This document shows, one piece after another, positions 11,585 to 22,294 of a DNA stretch of 26,695 nt. Each line of letters starts with the position of its first letter. Position 1 is the stretch's first letter. Made by a program: the position numbers and the translations under genes. Source of the DNA: a virus; the IMG/VR virus record IMGVR_UViG_3300035698_006418, positions 1 through 26,695 of that record. One strand, written 5' to 3'. The notes beneath the pieces are model-generated. The model saw only the letters and a program-made list of their open reading frames with translations, was not told the DNA's origin and did no database searches.

Positions 11585-12752
11585 GAAGAAAAAAGTAGAA
11601 GAGATGGGAGTTGGCGGCCTAGCAGGAATGCAAGTACCAATTGGCATCAAGAAAAGAAAGAAGAAGGTTGACGAACTACTTGAGCTCAATGAGAGTGTAT
11701 CTGTAGCAGAAGCTATTGGATACTTCAGTGGTTTAGATGAGAAAGCTTCTCTTGAAGTCGAAGGAATGCTTGATGAAAGTGATTATGTCAAGCTATCAGA
11801 GATGATAAAGAATGGTTTCGCAGAGGCTGCAATCAGAGAGAAGATTAGGAAGAGAGTAAAAGAAGTTGTCAGGAGGCAACCTGATGGTCAGTATGCTCTC
11901 TACACTCCAAATCCAGATAAGGCTCATGGTTCATCGCAAGTTGGAACGTTCCCTACTAAACTAGCTGCCAGAAGAGCAGAACTTAGTAGATTCCCACCAA
12001 AGGAACCACAGAAGCTTGCTAGGCTTAGAAAAGATGTAGACAAACTACGCAAGAACCCAGAGCTCGCTTCAAAGGAAACTCCTGGCTGGATGGGTGATAA
12101 GAAGAAGAAGAAGAAAGCTCCAAAGCCAAAAAAGACAAAGAAGGAATCACTCGAGAACCTTATTACCAATCTATCAGAGAGCCTGTTCCGCGAAGAAAAA
12201 AAGGGTAGTGGCTGGGACGAGTACGTCTCGAAGTTGTCTAAGCAAGCAGTCCTTGCCGACAAAACGTTCCAGTCTCACCAGAAAGCTATTGCTAAGAGAT
12301 CAGAGAAAGCTCTGAAGTCAGCTGTTAAGTCTGTATCATCTGCTCTGTCTGGTGCAGGATTTGAAGTAAAGGATGGTGGGGTTAAGAAAGACCCTAACAA
12401 GGAAAGAGTGTACGCAGAGCTTTCCGCGTCTGACCAAGAGGGAACATCTGACGTCGGGCCAATCTACATCTTTATAGAGAATGGATATCCTAACATAGAG
12501 ATATCTGATACTGCAAAGAATGGTCTTACCAAAATGGATCCAGCTAGAGGTAAAGTTCTAAGAGCAGAGTTAATAACTGTACAGGATGAAGTTCTTGACA
12601 AAGACGAAACAGCATCAGGTGCGATTAAGAAAAGAGATGAATACCTCAACAAGATAGAAAAGAAGGTAGATGACTTCGTATCAGACATGTCTTCATTAGA
12701 AATAACGATGCTCAAGAGAACACTGAGCAGCAAGTTCAGGAAAATCAAATAA
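11577..12752 (+). CDS. Lysine-rich conserved head-cluster protein
   Basis: A 391-residue protein without a known domain. The N-terminus is basic (GKKKKVEE, KKRKKKVDE). Residues about 95-165 hold a compact conserved-looking stretch with YALYTPNPDKAHGS and VGTFPTKLAARRAELSRFPP, and a polylysine run follows at about 173-190 (KKKKKKAPKPKK). The last 200 residues are an alpha/beta region. The basic runs suggest contact with DNA or the acidic scaffold inside the prohead. It sits between portal and protease and its stop overlaps the protease start (TAATG). The ATG at 11577 follows GGGGGAAGG. Confidence 0.7.
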   Translation: MGKKKKVEEMGVGGLAGMQVPIGIKKRKKKVDELLELNESVSVAEAIGYFSGLDEKASLEVEGMLDESDYVKLSEMIKNGFAEAAIREKIRKRVKEVVRRQPDGQYALYTPNPDKAHGSSQVGTFPTKLAARRAELSRFPPKEPQKLARLRKDVDKLRKNPELASKETPGWMGDKKKKKKAPKPKKTKKESLENLITNLSESLFREEKKGSGWDEYVSKLSKQAVLADKTFQSHQKAIAKRSEKALKSAVKSVSSALSGAGFEVKDGGVKKDPNKERVYAELSASDQEGTSDVGPIYIFIENGYPNIEISDTAKNGLTKMDPARGKVLRAELITVQDEVLDKDETASGAIKKRDEYLNKIEKKVDDFVSDMSSLEITMLKRTLSSKFRKIK

Positions 12753-13336
12753 TGAAACTATTAAGAGAGTGGATAGCTTTAGACTATACGCCTGCTATGA
12801 TTACAGAGTCGCGTGCGAAGAACGATGGAAAGATCATGCTTCCATGTATCCTTCAGAAGGCTCACCTCAAAAACCAGAACGGTAGAATCTACCCGAAGGA
12901 AGTTCTTATACGAGAAGTTGAGAACTACAAGAAGGTAGTCGCAGAAACTAGAGCTCTTGGAGAACTTGACCATCCTGAGACTTCCACTGTTGCTTTAGAT
13001 AGAGCATCACATATAATCAGAGAAATCTTCTGGGAAGGTGACACAGTTCGAGGCATCGTAGAAGTTCTATCGACACCGAAGGGCCAGATATTAGCTACGC
13101 TCCTAGAGTCTGGAGTAAGGATTGGTATGTCATCTAGAGGTATCGGAAGCACAGAGGCCACGAATGAGGGCACAGATATCGTACAGGATGATTATGGCTT
13201 AATTTGTTTTGATGCAGTGTCTGAACCATCAACTCCTGGTGCTTTCATAAATGAGAACATTGAAATAAGTGGAAAGGTTTACACGAAGTCAGATAGAATC
13301 TGGCGTGCGTTAAACGATGTAACAAGAGGTAAGTAG
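12752..13336 (+). CDS. 21: Prohead maturation protease
   Basis: A 194-residue T4 gp21-type serine protease (peptidase family U9/U35-like, herpes-assemblin fold) that degrades the scaffold and trims the capsid protein inside the prohead. The catalytic His is in LGELDHPETS (about residue 73) and the Ser in GMSSRGIGS (about 129), with the supporting FDAVSEPSTPGAFI strand after it. T4 gp21 has 212 residues. It starts within the stop of the upstream gene. A matching L-x-E cleavage site is visible in the major capsid protein. Just past its stop, the +1 frame stays open for 26 codons (see the separate entry). Confidence 0.93.
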   Translation: MKLLREWIALDYTPAMITESRAKNDGKIMLPCILQKAHLKNQNGRIYPKEVLIREVENYKKVVAETRALGELDHPETSTVALDRASHIIREIFWEGDTVRGIVEVLSTPKGQILATLLESGVRIGMSSRGIGSTEATNEGTDIVQDDYGLICFDAVSEPSTPGAFINENIEISGKVYTKSDRIWRALNDVTRGK

Positions 13337-13412
13337 AACATGGGCAGCAGGTCCAGCACCAACAGAGTCTGTAACACAGATAAAAGAAATTACAATACTA
13401 CACGACCCATAG
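13323..13412 (+). other. Gap after gene 21: open +1 frame without a start codon
   Basis: The 87-base gap between the protease and the next gene contains, in the frame +1 to gene 21, an open stretch with coding-like content (RTWAAGPAPTESV then TQIKEITILHDP) ending in TAG at 13410. It has no usable start. It could be a C-terminal extension reached by a +1 slip at AAG-TAG-A, or a relic of a lost gene. An ATG-initiated 26-codon frame (13340-13420) in another frame is also present but has no good ribosome-binding site. No terminator or TATTTA motif is present here. Confidence 0.2.
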
Positions 13413-13423
13413 AAAGATAAGTT

Positions 13424-13951
13424 ATGAAGAGAACACACCTAGAAAATATGATTAGAAAAGTAGTTGCAGAAGAAGTGCGAAAGCAACTACCTAATGTAGT
13501 CTCTGAGATGTATCTAAAGAAGCTCGTATCTGAAGCATCAGTACGTGAAACTCACTGGGAAGACACATTCGACGCTGAACTACAGAGAAGAACTGAAGAG
13601 ATTCCCGAGATGATGCACAACTCAGATGAAGGCATATACCAAAGAGGTGGTCCGATCAAGAGAAAGAATGAAGAAGTCAGACAACAGAATGAGCAGGTTG
13701 TAAGTAAGTTACTATCACCAGGCAACAGCATGGCTCACCTGTATGAAAGCGTAGAGCCAATTGGTCGCCAGTCCGCAAGTGCTCCTGGTATGCCAGCACC
13801 TCAAACAGATGTCCCTCTAGAAGCTCTTGGCATTAAGAGATATAACTTAGCAGACTACAATGTTACCAACAGTGGTCCAATGCAGCAAACTGACGAAGCA
13901 GAAGAAAGAAGACTTGAACTACACAGGGCATCATTAGACAGAAAAGCATAA
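13424..13951 (+). CDS. Head-cluster protein of unknown function
   Basis: A 175-residue charged protein. The N-terminal helix (about 1-38: IRKVVAEEVRKQLPNVVSEMYLKKLV) is amphipathic and could be a coiled coil or an oligomerisation helix. The rest is polar, with Pro/Gln/Ala-rich linkers (SASAPGMPAPQTDVP), and is probably extended. There is no known domain. It is the first of three low-complexity genes between protease and scaffold. Its stop overlaps the next start (TAATG). The Shine-Dalgarno site is weak (AGAAAGA). Confidence 0.65.
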   Translation: MKRTHLENMIRKVVAEEVRKQLPNVVSEMYLKKLVSEASVRETHWEDTFDAELQRRTEEIPEMMHNSDEGIYQRGGPIKRKNEEVRQQNEQVVSKLLSPGNSMAHLYESVEPIGRQSASAPGMPAPQTDVPLEALGIKRYNLADYNVTNSGPMQQTDEAEERRLELHRASLDRKA

Positions 13952-15033
13952 TGAAAAAACCAACCAAAGAGTCGTCACTTAGCACAGGTGTCGGCGTTCC
14001 AGACGGATCCGGCGGCAGAAGCGGAAACAGAATCCATAAAGCGTATCAACGCGGTGGAGCTAAGTATCCGTACGACAAAGCTGCAGGAGCTCCAGGTTAT
14101 GGTGTTCCTTTAGGTTATGACAGGAGCAGCTCTGGTAATGGTGGTTCAAGACAGAATGTTAATGTTCCAAAGAATGTGGGAGCAGATGACACTCGTTGGT
14201 CTGATGATATTGTCGACACTAGCGAGTCAAGAGATGGCGCTTCGTGGAATAGTGCAAGTCCTACTAAGGGCAACATAACATACAACCCTAAAGAGAAATC
14301 TAGATTTGGAGAGGATGACATTGATGAAGCTCTTGGTAGTCCATCAAACTCTGCTAAAGCTGGATCTGGTGGCGGAGGTGGCGGAGGTCGGCCTGGTACA
14401 TCGGCCTGGGGAGGTAGACCGTGGACTGATGAGTTCGACAATCATATGTCAGATGACAAATTAGATAAGGCTTCTCGCCAAGATGAATTCAACTACGGTC
14501 CAGTCCGATCCCTATCTAAAGGAGAAGAGGAAAAGATTCCTTCTGTACCACAGCATGATATAGAGCTTGGCAAAGGTGCTGTCATATTGAAGGTAGGTGG
14601 AGCAGGGTTCCGTGCCGGTGCTGGTGGTGCTATGAAGCATTCGAGGATGCAACCAGGAATGTCATGGAGAGAATCCCTCCAGAGAGAACTAAATCACACG
14701 AGTCTAGTAGAGGCTTTCGTGTCACTGAGAGATACTGAACAGGGATGCCTTGCAAACTCAACATCAGCCCACGAAGTCGATCGAGGCATAGAGAATGATA
14801 CCTTTGTCTCAGCACACGCTCATGGCAAGAATGCAATGTCTTCGTTCGATGAAGGTGACATGGTTAAGCTGATGATGAAAATCGACCCAAATTATTTCGC
14901 TAATTCTCTCGGAAAGATAGGAAAGGCAGAGCTGCTGAATACTTATGATGAATGGGCCGATGATGTCATAGCCGACGATAAAGGCGATATTGGTGGTATG
15001 ACAGAACGTATATTAAAGGTTTGCGGAGAATAA
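13951..15033 (+). CDS. Gly/Ser-rich low-complexity head-cluster protein
   Basis: A 360-residue protein whose first two thirds are Gly-, Ser- and Asp-rich and probably disordered, with a seven-glycine run near residue 143. The C-terminal 130 residues are more ordered and helical (WRESLQRELNHTSLVEAFVSL; DEGDMVKLMMKIDPNYFANSLGK). No family is recognised. The flexible part and its location next to scaffold and capsid genes suggest an internal head or decoration component. Its start lies in the stop codon of the previous gene. Confidence 0.65.
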   Translation: MKKPTKESSLSTGVGVPDGSGGRSGNRIHKAYQRGGAKYPYDKAAGAPGYGVPLGYDRSSSGNGGSRQNVNVPKNVGADDTRWSDDIVDTSESRDGASWNSASPTKGNITYNPKEKSRFGEDDIDEALGSPSNSAKAGSGGGGGGGRPGTSAWGGRPWTDEFDNHMSDDKLDKASRQDEFNYGPVRSLSKGEEEKIPSVPQHDIELGKGAVILKVGGAGFRAGAGGAMKHSRMQPGMSWRESLQRELNHTSLVEAFVSLRDTEQGCLANSTSAHEVDRGIENDTFVSAHAHGKNAMSSFDEGDMVKLMMKIDPNYFANSLGKIGKAELLNTYDEWADDVIADDKGDIGGMTERILKVCGE

Positions 15034-15035
15034 AG

Positions 15036-15557
15036 ATGGATCTCACAATAGAAGAACTTAAAAAAGTAATTGAAGGCGCGATCAAAGAATTCGCAGAAGC
15101 TGGAGAGAAAGGCCGAGATGGCTATCAGCAAGACGAAGACTGCCCTGTACAGCCACGAGGTTTTGGCAAAGCCGATACACATGACTTCTCCATTGCATCA
15201 GCAGAAGGTAGTAGATATAAAAGGCAGGGTGCTTCAAACCTCGGCCCTTTTACATCAGAAGCTGCAATCAGAGCAATCGCCAAAGATGTCATTAGAGAAG
15301 CTATGAAGCCCATGCCATCAAAGAAGATGGATTCCTCAGCACCGTTTAATGCCAAGCAGGCTAAGATTGGTGAGGCTGGATCTGTAGGCAATGTTAGCAT
15401 GCCAGGGTGGAAGTCTACCAAGAAGAGTAAGAAAGAGTCAACAGACAGCTGGTTTGATACAAAAGAAATGAAAGGCCAGAAGTCTAAAATGAAAAACAAG
15501 CTCGAAAGCAATATCTTGCAGGGAGTATATGAGTCAAGAACGAAAGGTAAGAAGTAA
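15036..15557 (+). CDS. Head-cluster protein of unknown function, lysine-rich tail
   Basis: A 173-residue protein with an N-terminal acidic helix (MDLTIEELKKVIEGAIKEFAE), a polar middle, a second helix (EAAIRAIAKDVIREAMKP) and a lysine-rich C-terminus (KSTKKSKKES; KGQKSKMKNK). The two helices are of the short type found in scaffold-binding proteins, but no domain is recognised. ATG 15036 is chosen over the in-frame TTG at 15021, because GGAG (15025-15028) lies seven bases before the ATG. It is followed after two bases by the bS21-like gene. Confidence 0.65.
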   Translation: MDLTIEELKKVIEGAIKEFAEAGEKGRDGYQQDEDCPVQPRGFGKADTHDFSIASAEGSRYKRQGASNLGPFTSEAAIRAIAKDVIREAMKPMPSKKMDSSAPFNAKQAKIGEAGSVGNVSMPGWKSTKKSKKESTDSWFDTKEMKGQKSKMKNKLESNILQGVYESRTKGKK

Positions 15558-15559
15558 AG

Positions 15560-15781
15560 ATGGCTAGCAGAAGAGACGAAAACCATTTCAAAGCGTTAGA
15601 GGTAACTCAACGTGGAAATGAAAGCGTCGACAGAATGATTAAGAGATTCTCCAAGATGGTAAGAGGAGATGGCATCTTACAAGAGTTCACCGACAACAGA
15701 CAATACACCAAAAAATCAACCAAGCGCCGCAGGAAGCGCCAAGCAGCGAAATGGGCTGCACAGAATGCCTTAAGAAAATAG
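15560..15781 (+). CDS. rpsU: Ribosomal protein bS21 homologue
   Basis: A 73-residue, very basic protein that lines up with bacterial bS21. The pattern is V-x-R-x-N-E-x-x-D-x-x-x-K-R-F (here VTQRGNESVDRMIKRF), then GILQEF where bS21 has GVLAEV, then a Tyr-Lys segment (QYTKKSTKRRRKRQ) and the Arg/Lys/Ala-rich C-terminal helix. bS21 sits on the 30S platform next to the anti-Shine-Dalgarno sequence and affects initiation. Phage-encoded copies are known and are thought to bias host ribosomes to phage messages. Unusually, this copy lies inside the head operon, just before the scaffold gene, so it should be made late. It has an extra 14 or so residues at the N-terminus compared with E. coli bS21. 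Confidence 0.8.
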   Translation: MASRRDENHFKALEVTQRGNESVDRMIKRFSKMVRGDGILQEFTDNRQYTKKSTKRRRKRQAAKWAAQNALRK

Positions 15782-15804
15782 AAAAAAAGTTTGAAAAAAA
15801 GTTT
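15781..15804 (+). repeat. Two tandem copies of a 12-base A-tract unit
   Basis: GAAAAAAAGTTT occurs twice in direct succession (15781-15792, 15793-15804), starting on the last base of the bS21 stop codon. The second copy, with the next bases, also forms a 7-bp inverted repeat (TTTGAAA 15790-15796 with TTTCAAA 15102 offset, i.e. 15802-15808). A-tracts spaced about one helical turn apart bend DNA. The repeat lies just upstream of the putative promoter of the scaffold gene, so it may act as an upstream promoter element. Confidence 0.6.
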
Positions 15805-15810
15805 CAAATG

Positions 15811-15840
15811 TATTTAGTTCTAGATTTAGGCGGATAAATA
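15811..15840 (+). promoter_or_regulatory. Candidate late promoter region before the scaffold gene
   Basis: Two elements lie in the 74-base gap before the scaffold gene: TATTTA at 15811-15816, shared with five other gaps, and GATAAATA at 15833-15840, which matches the T4 late consensus TATAAATA at seven of eight positions. Either could be the -10 element. The second would place the start of the RNA very near the GGAG ribosome-binding site, so the first is more likely to serve a translated leader. Confidence 0.4.
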
Positions 15841-15855
15841 ATCCGGAGATCAAAA

Positions 15856-17004
15856 ATGAAAAGTAACAATGTAAAAGAATCGTTGGCCGACAGAGCTAGA
15901 ATTAGCAGAATGGCCGAGTCTATTGCAAAGAAGAAGATTATCGAAAGTATGACTCCATCAATTAGAATGTTAGTTGAGAGTCAGATTGAAGATGAAATGC
16001 AGACTTCCGAAGACACAGATCGTCTCCGTCGCGCTGCTGATGGTCGCGGCGAAACAGAGTTTGAAGAAGGCAAAGACCTTCCTAAAGGAGATGATGACAT
16101 GGATGATGAAAAAGAATTAGACCTAGAGAGCATGTTTCCACACCTTGCAGAAATGGAAGATGAGGAAGGACTTGAAGGCCCACCTAAAGAAGAGATGGAT
16201 GAATATGGTTTTGCCCAAGAAGGCTTTGGTGATGAAGAAGAAACGGAAATGCCAGCAGAAATGAGTATACCAACTCTTGGCGAAGGAGACGAAGGTGATA
16301 TGGAAGACATGGACGAAGAGATTTCAATTGATGAAGCTGAGCTAAAGAAAGCATATGAGTCAATTATGAAGACAAACGCTGCTCTTTCAGAAGCACAAGT
16401 CACAAGCGGATTTGCAGATACATACCCAAAGACAGAGTGGGAAACAGAGGATTCACCTCCAAGTGACACTGGCCTTATGGACAAGGATAGTGATAAACCT
16501 TGGGACGAAGGTCGTCCACCAGCTGCTCAAGACCTTACAGTAAAAGAGTCTATTGAGAAAAGCCTTAGAGAGAACAGAAACCTTAGAAAGTATGTTCTTC
16601 ATCTAGAAAGCCAGCTCGGCGCAGCTCACAAGGTTGTTGGCAAGCTAAAAGAAGAAGTTTCAAATGTAAACCTCTTTAACATGAAAGTTCTTCGTGTTAA
16701 TGAGATGCTTAACAAGTTTGGTAAGTCCCTTACTTTAGAGCAAAAGAAAGTCGTTATCGAGAAAATCGACAGCGCAAGAACAGTACGAGAAGTTAAGGTT
16801 GTTTCCGAAGCACTCAACGTGGCCTTCAAGTCTTCAGGCAAGAGAATGTCAGAGGGAAGAAAGCGCAGTAACTCTAGAGCAAACTCTTCACGTACACGCA
16901 GCAGTGGTTCACCAAACCAAAAAGTTCTCAGAGAATCTGTGGACAAGACCGGCAGTAACAATTACTCCCGTATGAGAGAGCTCGCTGGCCTTATCGGTAG
17001 CTAA
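15856..17004 (+). CDS. 22: Prohead scaffolding (core) protein
   Basis: A 382-residue protein in the T4 gp22 position, directly before the capsid gene. The N-terminal 45 residues are helical. Residues about 55-165 are extremely acidic with Met, Glu and Asp repeats. A central coiled coil (about 230-275, LRENRNLRKYVLHLESQLGA) and a helical region typical of gp22 (LTLEQKKVVIEKIDSARTVREVKVVSEAL) follow, then a short Arg/Ser-rich linker and the tail MRELAGLIGS. Scaffold fills the prohead and is destroyed by the protease. It is longer than T4 gp22 (269) because of the acidic insert. The GGAG in CCGGAGATC supports the ATG. Confidence 0.8.
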   Translation: MKSNNVKESLADRARISRMAESIAKKKIIESMTPSIRMLVESQIEDEMQTSEDTDRLRRAADGRGETEFEEGKDLPKGDDDMDDEKELDLESMFPHLAEMEDEEGLEGPPKEEMDEYGFAQEGFGDEEETEMPAEMSIPTLGEGDEGDMEDMDEEISIDEAELKKAYESIMKTNAALSEAQVTSGFADTYPKTEWETEDSPPSDTGLMDKDSDKPWDEGRPPAAQDLTVKESIEKSLRENRNLRKYVLHLESQLGAAHKVVGKLKEEVSNVNLFNMKVLRVNEMLNKFGKSLTLEQKKVVIEKIDSARTVREVKVVSEALNVAFKSSGKRMSEGRKRSNSRANSSRTRSSGSPNQKVLRESVDKTGSNNYSRMRELAGLIGS

Positions 17005-17041
17005 TCGCTACACTTAATACAATTCTTAGGAGAAAATACAA

Positions 17042-18736
17042 ATGAGTAGAAAAGCAAATTTCGACATCACTCAACTGACTGCAGGAATCCACAAGAAGGA
17101 TCGCATCTCAGAGGTAAGACGTTTAGTAGAAAAATGGGAAGACACAGGTCTCCTTGAGGGTCTTAAAGACACTCCAACAGCGAAGAACAAGTCATCAATG
17201 GCTGTCCTTCTCGAAAACCAGGCAGCATCGTTACTTAACGAGCAGTCAACTGTGGCCGACATCATCGGCTTCCAGAATGTTGCATTCCCAATCGTTCGCC
17301 GTGTATTCGGTGGTCTGATTGCAAACGAGCTTGTCTCGGTGCAGCCTATGAGTCTTCCTTCGGGACTTCTCTTCTACCTTGACTATAGAATGGATACTGT
17401 CAAGGCTGGTAACAAGAATGACGACTTCTCAGCAGGTGGTTCACTCTTCGGTAACCAGACAGCTCCAGGTACTGAGAACCTTGGAACAGGTGGTTTCTAT
17501 AACCTAGGAACTTCTTTCTCACAAAGAGAGAAAATCTCTGTTGCTACATTCTCTGGTACTCTCTCTGCTCTTACACTTGCAGACGTCGACCATGATCCAG
17601 ATCTTTCTGCATCACTTGCTTCTTACCAGAAGCTAACACTTACAAGTGCCCACTCGGAGGTTTCTCCTTCTGGTTCTGATGCAAGTGTTAATGGTCTTAA
17701 GCACTGGGTTCCAGTTTCTGGTTCGTCAACAAGCGCTAGTGCATCTTCGGATGGTTCTCCAGTACAGGTTGAATCAGGCATGTCTGTTATTAGACGACAC
17801 ACGGTACAAAGTGGCAATGACCTTGTCTTCGTAGTTAGTGCAGCTTCGGCAGCTCAGGCCGCTGGTTGGGAAACAGTCAAGCTTTCGTATCTTGTTAGCC
17901 CAACACTTACAGGTGGTACTTCAGGTACTCTTGTTCTTCCTTCGTTCGAGTCAGACCTTGATACGACTCCAATGCCAGAAATCCCTGAGATCGATCTTCG
18001 TATCCAATCTCTCGCGGTTACTGCAGAGACAAGAAAGCTCAGAGCTCGCTGGACTCCAGAGATGGCTCAGGACCTTGCTGCTTACCAGAACCTGGATGCA
18101 GAAGTTGAACTTACACAAGTTCTTTCTGAGACAATCGCTCTTGAAATCGATCGTGAGATTCTCGCTGATCTTCTTTATGGCGCAACTGGTGCTAACTTCC
18201 ACTGGTCACGTAAACCAGGTAAGTTCATCGACAAGCAAACTGGTAATACTGTAACAGGCGCTTCCTTCACTGGTACTGTTCGCGAGTGGTATGAGACTCT
18301 CATTGAGACTGTCATCGACGTTGCAAACGTTATTCATAGAAAGACACTCCGTGGTGCAGCTAACTTCCTCGTAACATCTCCTGATGTTGCTACAATCCTT
18401 GAGGCATCGGTTCTTTACAAGCCAGTACTCTCAATGGATCCAAAGGAATCTCAGTTCACTGTTGGCGCCGAAAAGGTTGGTACAATGAACAACCGCTTTA
18501 CGGTCTACAAAGATCCTTACTTCATCCGAAATAAGATCCTTGTTGGTTACAAAGGTGGGTCATTCCTCGAAACAGGATTTGTTTATGCCCCATACGTACC
18601 ATTGATTGTTACTCCAACAATCTACGCTCCTGAGGACTTCACACCTCGTAAAGGCGTTATGACTCGCTACGCTAAGAAGCTTGTCAGATCCGACTTCTAC
18701 GGTACTGTTGAAATCCAGGACCTCAACGTAATCTAA
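17042..18736 (+). CDS. 23: Major capsid protein
   Basis: A 564-residue T4 gp23 homologue with the HK97 fold. The hallmarks are VADIIGFQNVAFPIVRRVFGGLIANELVSVQPM and LPSGLLFYLDYRM. The likely prohead-protease site is LNE at residues 65-67 (cut after Glu67), matching the site after Glu65 in T4; the N-terminal delta domain before it is charged and helical. A Ser/Thr/Gly-rich variable segment (about 195-300) corresponds to the surface insertion region. The C-terminal half (ALEIDREILADLLYG, YAPYVPLIVTPTIY, FTPRKGVMTRYAKKLVR) is highly conserved in the family. A strong AGGAG lies before the ATG. A terminator follows directly. Confidence 0.96.
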   Translation: MSRKANFDITQLTAGIHKKDRISEVRRLVEKWEDTGLLEGLKDTPTAKNKSSMAVLLENQAASLLNEQSTVADIIGFQNVAFPIVRRVFGGLIANELVSVQPMSLPSGLLFYLDYRMDTVKAGNKNDDFSAGGSLFGNQTAPGTENLGTGGFYNLGTSFSQREKISVATFSGTLSALTLADVDHDPDLSASLASYQKLTLTSAHSEVSPSGSDASVNGLKHWVPVSGSSTSASASSDGSPVQVESGMSVIRRHTVQSGNDLVFVVSAASAAQAAGWETVKLSYLVSPTLTGGTSGTLVLPSFESDLDTTPMPEIPEIDLRIQSLAVTAETRKLRARWTPEMAQDLAAYQNLDAEVELTQVLSETIALEIDREILADLLYGATGANFHWSRKPGKFIDKQTGNTVTGASFTGTVREWYETLIETVIDVANVIHRKTLRGAANFLVTSPDVATILEASVLYKPVLSMDPKESQFTVGAEKVGTMNNRFTVYKDPYFIRNKILVGYKGGSFLETGFVYAPYVPLIVTPTIYAPEDFTPRKGVMTRYAKKLVRSDFYGTVEIQDLNVI

Positions 18737-18756
18737 GATTACTGATAGTATAGGAT

Positions 18757-18793
18757 AAAGAATGGCTCCTCCTTCGGGTGGGGCCATTCTTTT
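18757..18793 (+). terminator. Rho-independent terminator after the major capsid gene
   Basis: Outer stem AAAGAATGGC / GCCATTCTTT is perfect, continued inward by a T-G wobble and two C-G pairs, one T-T mismatch and CC/GG, capped by the very stable UUCG tetraloop. A T-run follows (18790-18793). It lies 20 bases past the capsid stop, as expected for the end of the head transcript. Confidence 0.9.
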
Positions 18794-18821
18794 ATTTGAA
18801 TCATAACTCTCACATGTTTCA

Positions 18822-18827
18822 TATTTA
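18822..18827 (+). promoter_or_regulatory. Candidate late-promoter element (TATTTA) before the neck genes
   Basis: TATTTA follows the capsid terminator by about 30 bases and precedes the next ATG by 18 bases, with an AGAGGAG ribosome-binding site between. A terminator followed at once by this hexamer is what a new transcription unit would show. The promoter role is inferred from recurrence. Confidence 0.4.
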
Positions 18828-18845
18828 CTAAGAGGAGACACGATT

Positions 18846-19115
18846 ATGAAGAAAAAGAAACAGCTGCTGAAGGAAGTGTTTGGCACTAATAACTCTATGG
18901 ACTACTCTCATGGTAAGATAAAACCTGGGAAGACATTTGTAGATGCAATGCAGGCATTGGATGACATGATTGATATTGGTTCGAACATCGTTGATGTAGA
19001 CAACAAACAGTCAGGAGATAGCTTAGAGATTATGCTCAGTGGTCTGATGGCATTGTTCGATGACATGGTTCAAGTTAGAGATGCATTGGATTCAAGAAGG
19101 GACTTAGACGACTAG
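18846..19115 (+). CDS. Small acidic hypothetical protein
   Basis: An 89-residue protein with a basic start (MKKKKQLLKEVFG) and an acidic, helical remainder rich in Asp and Met (MQALDDMIDIGSNIVDVDN; MALFDDMVQVRDALDSRRDLDD). No domain is recognised. A strong AGAGGAG site supports the ATG. It is the first gene of the unit after the capsid terminator and precedes the neck protein genes, so a structural or assembly role is possible. Confidence 0.65.
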   Translation: MKKKKQLLKEVFGTNNSMDYSHGKIKPGKTFVDAMQALDDMIDIGSNIVDVDNKQSGDSLEIMLSGLMALFDDMVQVRDALDSRRDLDD

Positions 19116-19144
19116 AACTACTTGTTGTGGGTAAGGGATAGATT

Positions 19145-19216
19145 ATGACAGCAGTAGGCGAAGCATACGGCACAGGATCGCAAGCTCGCTCAAAGCTACA
19201 ACGGATTTGTACGTAA
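19145..19216 (+). CDS. Candidate 23-residue peptide in the gap before the neck gene
   Basis: The 139-base gap between the small acidic gene and the gp13-like gene contains a short ATG frame (MTAVGEAYGTGSQARSKLQ...). In the neighbouring frame an open stretch ending at TAA 19240 reads ASSLKATTDLYVTVVWEELL, which looks coding but has no start. Together they could be one small gene broken by a frameshift. The ribosome-binding site (TAAGGGAT) is modest. No terminator or TATTTA motif was found here. Confidence 0.25.
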   Translation: MTAVGEAYGTGSQARSKLQRICT

Positions 19217-19254
19217 CAGTTGTTTGGGAAGAACTACTCTAAGAGGAATTAACA

Positions 19255-20448
19255 ATGACAGCATTTGTAACAGGTTCAACACCATTCGGAATATTCGACT
19301 CAGATGAGTGCTTCCAGGGTGATGCTAGCAAGATTGAAGATTGGGTCCGCCGCAAATTAGGTGGGTCACAGTTATGCGTAGAGCTGTCTTCATCAGACAT
19401 ATTCTCTTCTTTTGAAGAAGCTGCTATTGAATACAGCGCCTACATCAACCAATACCAATTCAAGTCTGTAGCAGCAGACATCCTTGGGTCAGCAACAGGT
19501 TCTCTGAGCGCATCACAGGCCGGTGGCGGACAGGAAAACCGCTATCCCCAGAGTCTATTGGAGTTCCAGAAAAGGCAATCAGAGCCATATGGAGAGATCG
19601 CTGGTGTCGGTGGTGCTTATACTCTCCACTCAGCTTCCTTCACCACAACAATTGGCATTGCAGAATATGATGTCCAAGATATTATCAGTGCACAATTAAC
19701 TGGAGCAGATGGCAGAGTCAAGAGAGCACAGATTAAAGAGATCTTTCACTTCAGTCCACTCAGTCAATACAGGTTCTTTGGAACTACATCTGCTGTAAAC
19801 TATCTCAACAACCAGTTTTCATTCGAGTCATTCACTCCAGAGACAGTATTCTACATGCTTCCAGTATGGGAAGATATCTTGAGAGGTATGCAGTTCGAAA
19901 CGTCCAACAGAGTAAGAAGAAGTCAATACAGTTATGATAACAACAACAACGTAATCAAGTTGTATCCACCACCGTCATCTGGTGGTACTAGAGTTCACTT
20001 CACATACTGGCTTCCAAAAGGCCCATACGCTCCAGACTATGATGATGCAGCTCTCGATGGAGTAGCGAATGTTTCGAATGCTCCATTCAGCAATATTAGA
20101 TACTGTAAGCTGAACTCAATTGCTAGGCAGTGGATATGGAAGATGTCATTCGCTTTATCAAAAGAGATACTTGGAGAGATGAGATCCAAGATGTCAACGA
20201 TCCCAATTCCAGGTGGTGATCTTACTCTCAACGGACCAGAGTTAATATCTGATGCGAGGGTAGAAGCAGACCGTCTGCGTAACGAGTTGAAAGAATACTT
20301 GGATGATACTACTTATCAAGCGATTGCGCAGAAAGAAGCTGACAAAGCAGATGCAATCAAGAAGACAATGGCAGAAGTTCCACTAGGAATTTATGTCGGC
20401 TCATTTTTGGCGATATTTCTACCGATTTCATATCTATTACATGGTTAA
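19255..20448 (+). CDS. 13: Neck protein, T4 gp13-like
   Basis: A 397-residue protein resembling the larger neck or head-completion protein of marine T4-like phages: N-terminal [26 protein letters not shown], a helix with [19 protein letters not shown], the central [29 protein letters not shown], and C-terminal [29 protein letters not shown]. Neck proteins close the portal after packaging and dock the tail. The family-like part seems to end near PLGIYVG. The last 15 or so residues ([15 protein letters not shown]) are hydrophobic and overlap the inserted mobile gene, so the natural C-terminus may have been altered. Start: ATG 19255 after AGAGGA. Assignment to gp13 rather than another neck protein is moderate. 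Confidence 0.65.
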
Positions 20449-20893
20449 ATGTATGGAGTGTGGCAAAGAATATAAAGCAATCGTCAGACGACACCTTAAG
20501 TCTCATGACATGACGTTTGAAGAGTACAAAGATAAATGGCCAAAAGCTCAAACTTGGACTCCTAAGTCTGCAGAGATGAGAAAGAAGATTTCCCAAGGTA
20601 CAAAAAAAGGTATGCATAAACCAGAATCTTGGTCAAAGTTCAAGACTCATATTAGTACTAGAGATATTTCTGGTGAGAACAATCCATTTTATGGCAAAGA
20701 GCATACTGACAAAACGAAAAAACTTATATCTGAAAATGAAGTCCGTTCGAAGAAAATATCTGAAAAGAAGGAAGAGTGGTGGTCAACAAGAAAAGGACAG
20801 ACTGTAGAACAACTCTTTGGTGAAGAGACTGGAAAGAGGATAAGAAAGATAAAGTCTGAACAGGCGACAAGTATTGCGAAGAAAACGGAATGA
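20441..20893 (+). CDS. NUMOD3-type mobile protein with N-terminal zinc finger (free-standing homing-endonuclease relative)
   Basis: A protein of about 150 residues. It begins [21 protein letters not shown], a C-x2-C...H-x3-H finger of Ros/MucR type, continues [11 protein letters not shown], and carries a NUMOD3 DNA-binding motif ([21 protein letters not shown]) and a further lysine-rich helix. These are accessory domains of phage homing endonucleases; no GIY-YIG or HNH catalytic motif is visible, so it may be a remnant or a recombined fragment. It overlaps the 3' end of the gp13-like gene and separates it from the gp14-like gene, which are normally adjacent. ATG 20441 is chosen since the finger begins there; an in-frame ATG at 20393 would add 16 residues. 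Confidence 0.6.
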
Positions 20894-20994: not shown

Positions 20995-21497
20995 TGGCTC
21001 GCAAATTCATAACCGATAAAGAGTTCGCCTTCATTGAAAAGATTAACAAGGAGCTCATCCAAGAGTTTGTAGGGCAAGAGGTAATCTACTACGCCATCTC
21101 TATGGAGCATACGGTGTCTAATGACTTGTATAATGAATCTATAGATAAAGTATGGTTCAGCCCAGTCAGGATTAATGCTAGAGTAGAATGGGAAAACCCA
21201 GGAGTCTCATCTACAAGCTTTACATTAGATTCGAAGTACGATTTGATTGTAGACTTCCACATACAAGAGTTAGAAGAAAGGAATGTGAAACCAATAGAGG
21301 GCGATTTTATAGAGTTCGGACAAGTAGTATTTGAGATAACATCAGTTACAACTCCAGAGCTAGTCTACGGACAACCAAACAACAAAATAATGACGAGGTG
21401 TGTATGTGTACCTTCAAGAGAGGGTCAGATGCAAGTCCACTCGGATTCATCAGAATTTATTGATAACACACATCCTGTTGAAAATGAGGAGTGTTAA
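20994..21497 (+). CDS. 14: Neck protein, T4 gp14-like
   Basis: A 167-residue protein with segments I associate with the gp14 neck family: FIEKINKELIQEFVGQEVIYYAIS, DLYNESIDKVWFSPVRINARVEW, LIVDFHIQELEERNVKPIEGDFIEFGQVVFEITSVTTPELVYGQ and CVCVPSREGQ. It should form a ring with gp13 below the portal. It is shorter than T4 gp14 (256). The start is GTG overlapping the upstream TAG (TAGTG). Its stop overlaps the protease start (TAATG). Only part of the family pattern is remembered, so the assignment is moderate. Confidence 0.65.
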   Translation: MARKFITDKEFAFIEKINKELIQEFVGQEVIYYAISMEHTVSNDLYNESIDKVWFSPVRINARVEWENPGVSSTSFTLDSKYDLIVDFHIQELEERNVKPIEGDFIEFGQVVFEITSVTTPELVYGQPNNKIMTRCVCVPSREGQMQVHSDSSEFIDNTHPVENEEC

Positions 21498-22294
21498 TGA
21501 TTAAATTTATAATAGCAGTAGTGGTCGCGATTTTTCTCTTTACTTCGGTATCTTTTGTACCAACTACAAGAGGTGATACAGAGATTAGCCTTAGCAGAGG
21601 TGGCTTGTATGTCGAAGATATTGAAGAAGACTTTGCCTTATTAATGGAGCATGCAGTAAAGATCGAAAAAGAGATTGACACTGTAGATGTATTGGGTACT
21701 ACAACATCAACAGTAATAACGACTGGCTCTGGCTCTGTGATAGGACTAGAAGGCAATCATTCCCTTGTCCTTACTGTTCATCACGTATGCGAAAATATGG
21801 GGCTCAAGGGTAAGATACTTCTTGGTGAACTCATTACGGCAGAGAAAGACTTCGTAATTAGTAAGTCTGGTAGTAGGTTAAGGGTAACTGAGATCTTCTT
21901 TGAAGACAAGAGTAATGACATATGTGTAATAGGTGTGAAAGGTGTGGCAGGACTTCCAGCGTCACCAGCAGCATTCCTGCCAGAGCCAGGTGACGTTGTT
22001 TACTCGGTAGGTGCACCAAGCGGAATTTGGGACAAGGATGTCGTCCACCTAATTGACGGATACTTCATAGGCATAAAGTCAGAACCAATCAATGATATGT
22101 TCCACGGCTTCGCTCAGTACTCAATGCACAGCTCTGCTGGTGCAAGCGGATCGGCAATCTTCCACAAGGGTAGAATAATAGGTCTAATATCGCATGGAAG
22201 TCGCACATACTCTGGAGTTATGTGGGGACCTTCACTTGGTATTGTTCGCCATGCCGTAGAGACGGGTCTTAATAGATGGAGAGATAGCTTATAA
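21497..22294 (+). CDS. Trypsin-like serine protease with N-terminal signal or anchor
   Basis: A 265-residue protein. MIKFIIAVVVAIFLFTSVSFV is a signal peptide or membrane anchor. The rest shows a chymotrypsin/HtrA-like (Trypsin_2) fold: SLVLTVHHVC with the catalytic His (95 or 96), NDICVIGV with Asp141, and SSAGASGSAIF with Ser217 in GASGS, followed by GRIIGLISHG. All three residues are in the right order and spacing. Such a protein should act in the periplasm or at the membrane, and could process virion or host envelope proteins; the substrate is unknown. It lies between neck genes, and starts in the gp14 stop. ATG 21497 has GAGGAG five bases upstream, so the in-frame GTG at 21491 is not preferred. 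Confidence 0.75.
   Translation: MIKFIIAVVVAIFLFTSVSFVPTTRGDTEISLSRGGLYVEDIEEDFALLMEHAVKIEKEIDTVDVLGTTTSTVITTGSGSVIGLEGNHSLVLTVHHVCENMGLKGKILLGELITAEKDFVISKSGSRLRVTEIFFEDKSNDICVIGVKGVAGLPASPAAFLPEPGDVVYSVGAPSGIWDKDVVHLIDGYFIGIKSEPINDMFHGFAQYSMHSSAGASGSAIFHKGRIIGLISHGSRTYSGVMWGPSLGIVRHAVETGLNRWRDSL

Follow-up and report, generated by a model that had tools for sequence, protein, structure and literature searches.

The analysed stretch of DNA (hereafter the window) is a virus contig of 26,695 bases that carries a T4-type gene module comprising a gp46/47-like protein (Metallophos plus an SbcC-type Walker B motif), terminase, portal, prohead protease, capsid, sheath stabiliser and sheath. Within this module, the open reading frame at 15560–15781 is a phage-encoded gene for ribosomal protein bS21, the only bS21 match on the record, and the protease, capsid, portal and terminase genes all lie within ten genes of it. 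The features around it are listed below; L007, L008 and L009 denote three related loci (IMG/VR 3300025018_000482, 3300017991_003989 and 3300024265_000035).

12752–13336, + strand: prohead protease of the T4 gp21 type (Peptidase_S77, E 3.5e-29; PHROG 207)
13424–13951, + strand: 175-aa ORF in the protease–bS21 interval; homologues in the same place in L007–L009, no significant profile match
13951–15033, + strand: 360-aa ORF; homologues in the same place in L007–L009, no profile match
15036–15557, + strand: 173-aa ORF directly 5' of bS21; homologues before bS21 in L007–L009, unrelated ORFs there in other clades
15560–15781, + strand: bS21 gene (rpsU), ATG to TAG, 73 aa; identified by profile, PDB sequence, structure-model and Foldseek matches and by relatives
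15782–15855, + strand: bS21–scaffold gap, partly conserved; TATTTA at 15811 (candidate promoter) and a CCGGAG Shine-Dalgarno (SD) site
15856–17004, + strand: 382-aa ORF in the scaffold position (gp22 slot), before the capsid gene; homologues in L003, L007–L009 and L012
17042–18736, + strand: major capsid protein of the T4 gp23 type (Pfam Gp23, E 1.2e-76; PHROG 138)

The bS21 gene and its neighbours

The initial annotation had read the 73-residue product as bS21, to be checked by profile search and structure prediction, and several lines of comparison agree with it at a level far above chance. The product matches Pfam PF01165 Ribosomal_S21 over residues 15–63 (E 1.7e-13, 50.5 bits against a curated cut-off of 27), the NCBIfam equivalog TIGR00030 (E 2.8e-12, 46.3 bits against 28.95) and PHROG 21469 'ribosomal protein S21' (E 3.4e-6), so the family core is intact; in a phmmer search of the PDB, bS21 chains made up 35 of the 36 matches (best E 4.2e-6). 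An AlphaFold2 model, computed from 45 phage sequences (the window and IMG/VR loci only, with the cultured-phage row and some others left out), has the small helical bS21 fold with three helices (residues 23–37, 39–45 and 52–72; mean pLDDT 83, pTM 0.50). All four Foldseek matches of the model in the PDB are ribosomes at the bS21 chain (bacterial, chloroplast and mitochondrial), each singly non-significant (best E 0.31, probability 0.82) because the protein is so small and helical. Cellular bS21 from E. coli and Flavobacterium johnsoniae shares the core and helices but lacks about 11 residues by which the window protein is extended at its N-terminus; identity to E. coli bS21 is 26% (alignment A1). 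The gene has diverged faster than the protease, portal and capsid genes, at a rate similar to the small ORFs beside it. In sister clades it is under purifying selection (dN/dS about 0.02–0.15 where dS is measurable), and for the window gene dS is at or near saturation.

The gene had also been placed between the prohead protease and scaffold genes, two bases after the previous gene. Its position in the head cluster and the two-base gap (the preceding ORF stops at 15557) stand, but the protease is not adjacent, as three ORFs of 175, 360 and 173 aa fill the interval; on the other side follow the scaffold-position ORF and then the capsid gene. We call the ORF at 15856–17004 a putative scaffold because it precedes the capsid gene and shows weak homology in relatives; Pfam and PHROG searches with it gave no profile match.

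Three further ORFs of the module deserve mention in their own right. A Trypsin-like peptidase (21491–22294; Trypsin_2, E 2.4e-12) lies between neck and sheath-stabiliser genes, with no homologue detected among the relatives compared. The ORF at 20393–20893, which overlaps the 3' end of a neck gene, combines a ROS_MUCR-like zinc finger with a NUMOD3 motif, as in homing-endonuclease-type genes. Between terminase and portal, a 161-aa ORF (8166–8651) shows a sub-threshold match to an ART-PolyVal ADP-ribosyltransferase (E 0.045) and has a same-place homologue in L009 only.

Recurrence of the slot in related phages

Scanning IMG/VR with a four-sequence bS21 alignment yielded 66 loci. A same-strand prohead protease lies upstream of bS21 in 62 of them, and in two more (L089 and L105) a capsid gene follows downstream on the same strand, so that bS21 is near and co-stranded with protease and/or capsid in 64 of 66; the remaining two (L062 and L080) run off the contig, which begins 112 and 1,450 bases before bS21 with no marker gene visible. 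These loci are related, several are nearly identical and three belong to the window's own clade, so they do not count as independent events. With starts chosen mechanically, bS21 begins within 10 nt of the stop of the preceding long ORF, or overlaps it, at 47 of 57 loci. Of 23 records from a scan based on the protease instead, 14 contain bS21, all the closest ones among them; some of the nine records without it are short fragments. The gene occupies the same slot throughout the four-member window clade and in numerous distant relatives; L002, L004 and L005 carry it in the same region but on the other strand.

The three loci L007–L009 share the window's order of 175-aa, 360-aa and 173-aa ORFs, bS21, scaffold and capsid, although L007 and L009 carry extra genes between the protease and the 175-aa ORF. 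Their proteases are 74–78% identical to that of the window, their bS21 proteins only 44–52%. A fixed partner gene beside bS21 was considered and rejected, the upstream ORF coming from unrelated families in different clades. One such family of about 140 aa, starting MKKxELKxxIKECIKEV..EEG, stands directly before bS21 in L055 and about 23 other loci; it is absent from this place in the window clade, and PHROGs gave no significant function for it. We also noted an unannotated bS21 gene about 2 kb before the capsid gene of a 484-kb uncultured phage with an SD-less gene set (L120; LR756508.1, 160000–175500).

Judged by terminase and capsid, Flavobacterium phage immuto and Microcystis phage Mel-JY01 are among the nearest cultured phages, all of them below 50% identity. 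Immuto has the window's head genes but no bS21. Mel-JY01 (PP395634), which uses SD sites like the window, has an annotated RpsU on the same strand between prohead protease and capsid, with one ORF between protease and bS21 where the window has three, and three ORFs between bS21 and capsid. Its RpsU is about 22% identical to the window protein (alignment A3), and a tblastn search of cultured phages with the window bS21 gave no match.

Among the ribosomal proteins encoded by phages, bS21 is the most frequent (Mizuno 2019, PMC6375957), and hundreds of phages carry it near protease and capsid genes (Chen 2022, PMC9723584). Pelagimyophages such as HTVC008M are, like the window phage, myoviruses with bS21 (PMC6375957, PMC7029224), in their case outside any structural cluster (PMC7029224). 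In freshwater Bacteroidetes phages the gene lies in the terminase–portal–protease–capsid region but runs against the structural genes (PMC9723584), whereas in the window it shares their strand. The same study reported late transcription of phage bS21, found high transcript levels of both bS21 and the structural genes in active lake phages, and proposed essentially the late role that the initial annotation suggested here. The kind of gene, its position and its proposed role are thus already in the literature, and the window is a further example.

Initiation and transcription signals

SD use was assessed as the pairing energy between the 16S tail and the 20 bases before each start, compared with ATGs of the same sequence. 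In the window, 57% of genes reach dG <= -5 kcal/mol against a background of 20% (64% against 24% for hand-listed starts). L007, G007, G008, L003, L006, L010, L012, Mel-JY01 and six further loci likewise use SD sites, whereas the same test showed no enrichment in the opposite-strand loci L004 and L005, which have the Bacteroidetes-phage layout, in immuto or in the huge uncultured phage LR756508. Since the window differs in this from Bacteroidetes-type bS21 phages, its host is probably not a member of the Bacteroidia. A search for the host through the nearest cellular bS21 returned three genomic matches (two Gracilibacteria MAGs and one bacterium), in each of which the ORF directly after bS21 is one that we take to be prmC. 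We claim no host from them, because the search used narrow peptide patterns, TGA is an ordinary stop in the window (8 of 28 genes) and the cellular proteins score only 27–29 bits in Pfam.

The initial annotation had suggested that bS21 may tune 30S initiation toward late phage messages with strong GGAG sites. The window's SD use and the sites of the scaffold-position ORF (CCGGAG, energy -6.6) and the capsid gene (AGGAG) fit this idea, but any SD advantage of late genes is weak and inconsistent: in one-sided, uncorrected comparisons of the late block with the block upstream of terminase, with block limits of our choosing, we obtained p = 0.12 for the window, 0.43 for G008, 0.011 for G007 and 0.029 pooled. 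The bS21 gene's own site is weak in the window (-4.0), compatible with coupling to the gene before it, but stronger in other clades.

The 74-base gap after bS21 is partly conserved in an alignment of four relatives and contains the hexamer TATTTA, a motif picked post hoc after viewing the sequences. It occurs eight times on the + strand, at a frequency no higher than chance over the whole window, yet six copies fall within the 4% of sequence that is intergenic, preceding structural genes at 6047, 15811 (right after bS21), 18822, 23206, 25720 and 26302. Among distant loci, which overlap in ancestry, CTATTTA stands before 75 of 547 ORFs, and its reverse complement before not a single one; of 58 loci, 16 have the motif downstream of bS21 at a distance of at most 150 nt, and four have it upstream. 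We therefore regard TATTTA as a candidate late promoter only. If it is real, one transcript would finish with bS21 and another start with the scaffold gene; as the partly conserved gap with this candidate motif follows bS21, scaffold and capsid may be transcribed separately from bS21. No exact copy of the T4 late promoter TATAAATA was found in the window, its one-mismatch matches are below chance, and sigma-70-like sites are at chance level. The tight same-strand position in the head cluster, recurring in relatives, makes expression of bS21 together with the virion genes plausible.

A probable late role at the 30S platform

Taken as a whole, we consider it probable that this is a functional bS21 of a T4-like (myovirus) phage, placed in the head cluster for co-production with virion proteins and keeping or biasing host 30S initiation for phage messages. 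Made together with the virion proteins, it would replace the loosely bound host bS21 and probably enter the host 30S at the platform, beside the 3' tail of 16S rRNA, so that initiation could be held for, or shifted toward, phage messages during the bulk synthesis of virion proteins. We infer expression timing, ribosome exchange and any message preference in the window phage from gene position, from relatives and from work elsewhere: in Francisella and Flavobacterium, bS21 exchanges readily and influences the choice of messages for translation (PMC9578407, PMC9976891), and HTVC008M bS21 is incorporated into E. coli 70S ribosomes (PMC6375957). Ribosomes with the pelagiphage protein retained in vitro only about 5% of the activity of controls (PMC6375957), so any benefit of a phage bS21 is hypothetical. 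The above-cut-off profiles, the recurring slot and strand, the same slot in Mel-JY01 and the purifying selection in sister clades speak for this late role; close head-module relatives without the gene, such as immuto, and the lack of a clear SD advantage of late genes speak against it.

Among the alternatives, it is unlikely, though by no means far-fetched, that the protein simply tops up or replaces limiting or degraded host bS21 for all initiation, with no preference for phage messages and with the head-cluster position giving late, high expression. Initiation on natural messages requires bS21, which the ribosome holds loosely (PMC6375957, PMC9578407), and the inconsistent SD strength of late genes suits such a supply; the extended N-terminus and the low identity to E. 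coli bS21 set the phage protein apart from cell versions, which does not in itself prove a different function. Late transcription of bS21 (PMC9723584) is as compatible with the late role we favour as with bS21 being an internal head protein, packaged through the protease and scaffold pathway, injected with the DNA and acting early in the next infection. We judge the latter improbable: in its favour are only the place among head genes and the small basic make-up, in which bS21 resembles T4 internal proteins, while against it stand the opposite-strand genes of L002, L004 and L005, the position outside structural clusters in pelagimyophages (PMC7029224) and a literature search for bS21 in virion proteomics that found no report.

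That a bS21-like protein serves a non-ribosomal purpose, for example in RNA binding or autoregulation of its operon, is conceivable since an extra-ribosomal bS21 partner has been proposed in Bacillota (the OLE RNP, PMC12054373) and host bS21 synthesis is autoregulated in Flavobacterium (PMC9976891). With the family core intact by profile and no Rfam RNA family found in 12500–19500, we give this reading very little credence. We also disfavour the idea of a recently captured and functionally idle host gene as most improbable; some relatives with similar head modules do lack bS21, but its retention throughout the window clade and by numerous distant relatives, together with the purifying selection in sister clades, runs counter to it.

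One residue prompts a more specific, speculative reading. Trp65 (about 15752–15754) is invariant in the four-member window clade, an SD-using clade. Aligned via L004, it shares with F. johnsoniae bS21 Tyr54 a single column in a variable tail; in most other aligned phages this column is Arg, Ala or Lys. In Flavobacterium, Tyr54 contacts the anti-SD and helps to hide it (PMC9976891, PMC9723584), and its change to alanine raises translation from strong SD sites (PMC9976891). By means of Trp65 and the N-terminal extension, the phage protein could conceivably impose a partial Bacteroidia-like masking on an SD-using host, so that efficient initiation would be limited to translationally coupled genes and to strong-SD messages, for example those for the scaffold, capsid and sheath of the phage, a scenario we regard as a long shot.

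For the late role that we favour, the occurrence of the bS21 slot before scaffold and capsid in SD-using phages means that a benefit need not depend on the anti-SD masking of Bacteroidetes. The cultured Mel-JY01, which grows on Microcystis and carries bS21 between protease and capsid, makes the question of message choice testable.
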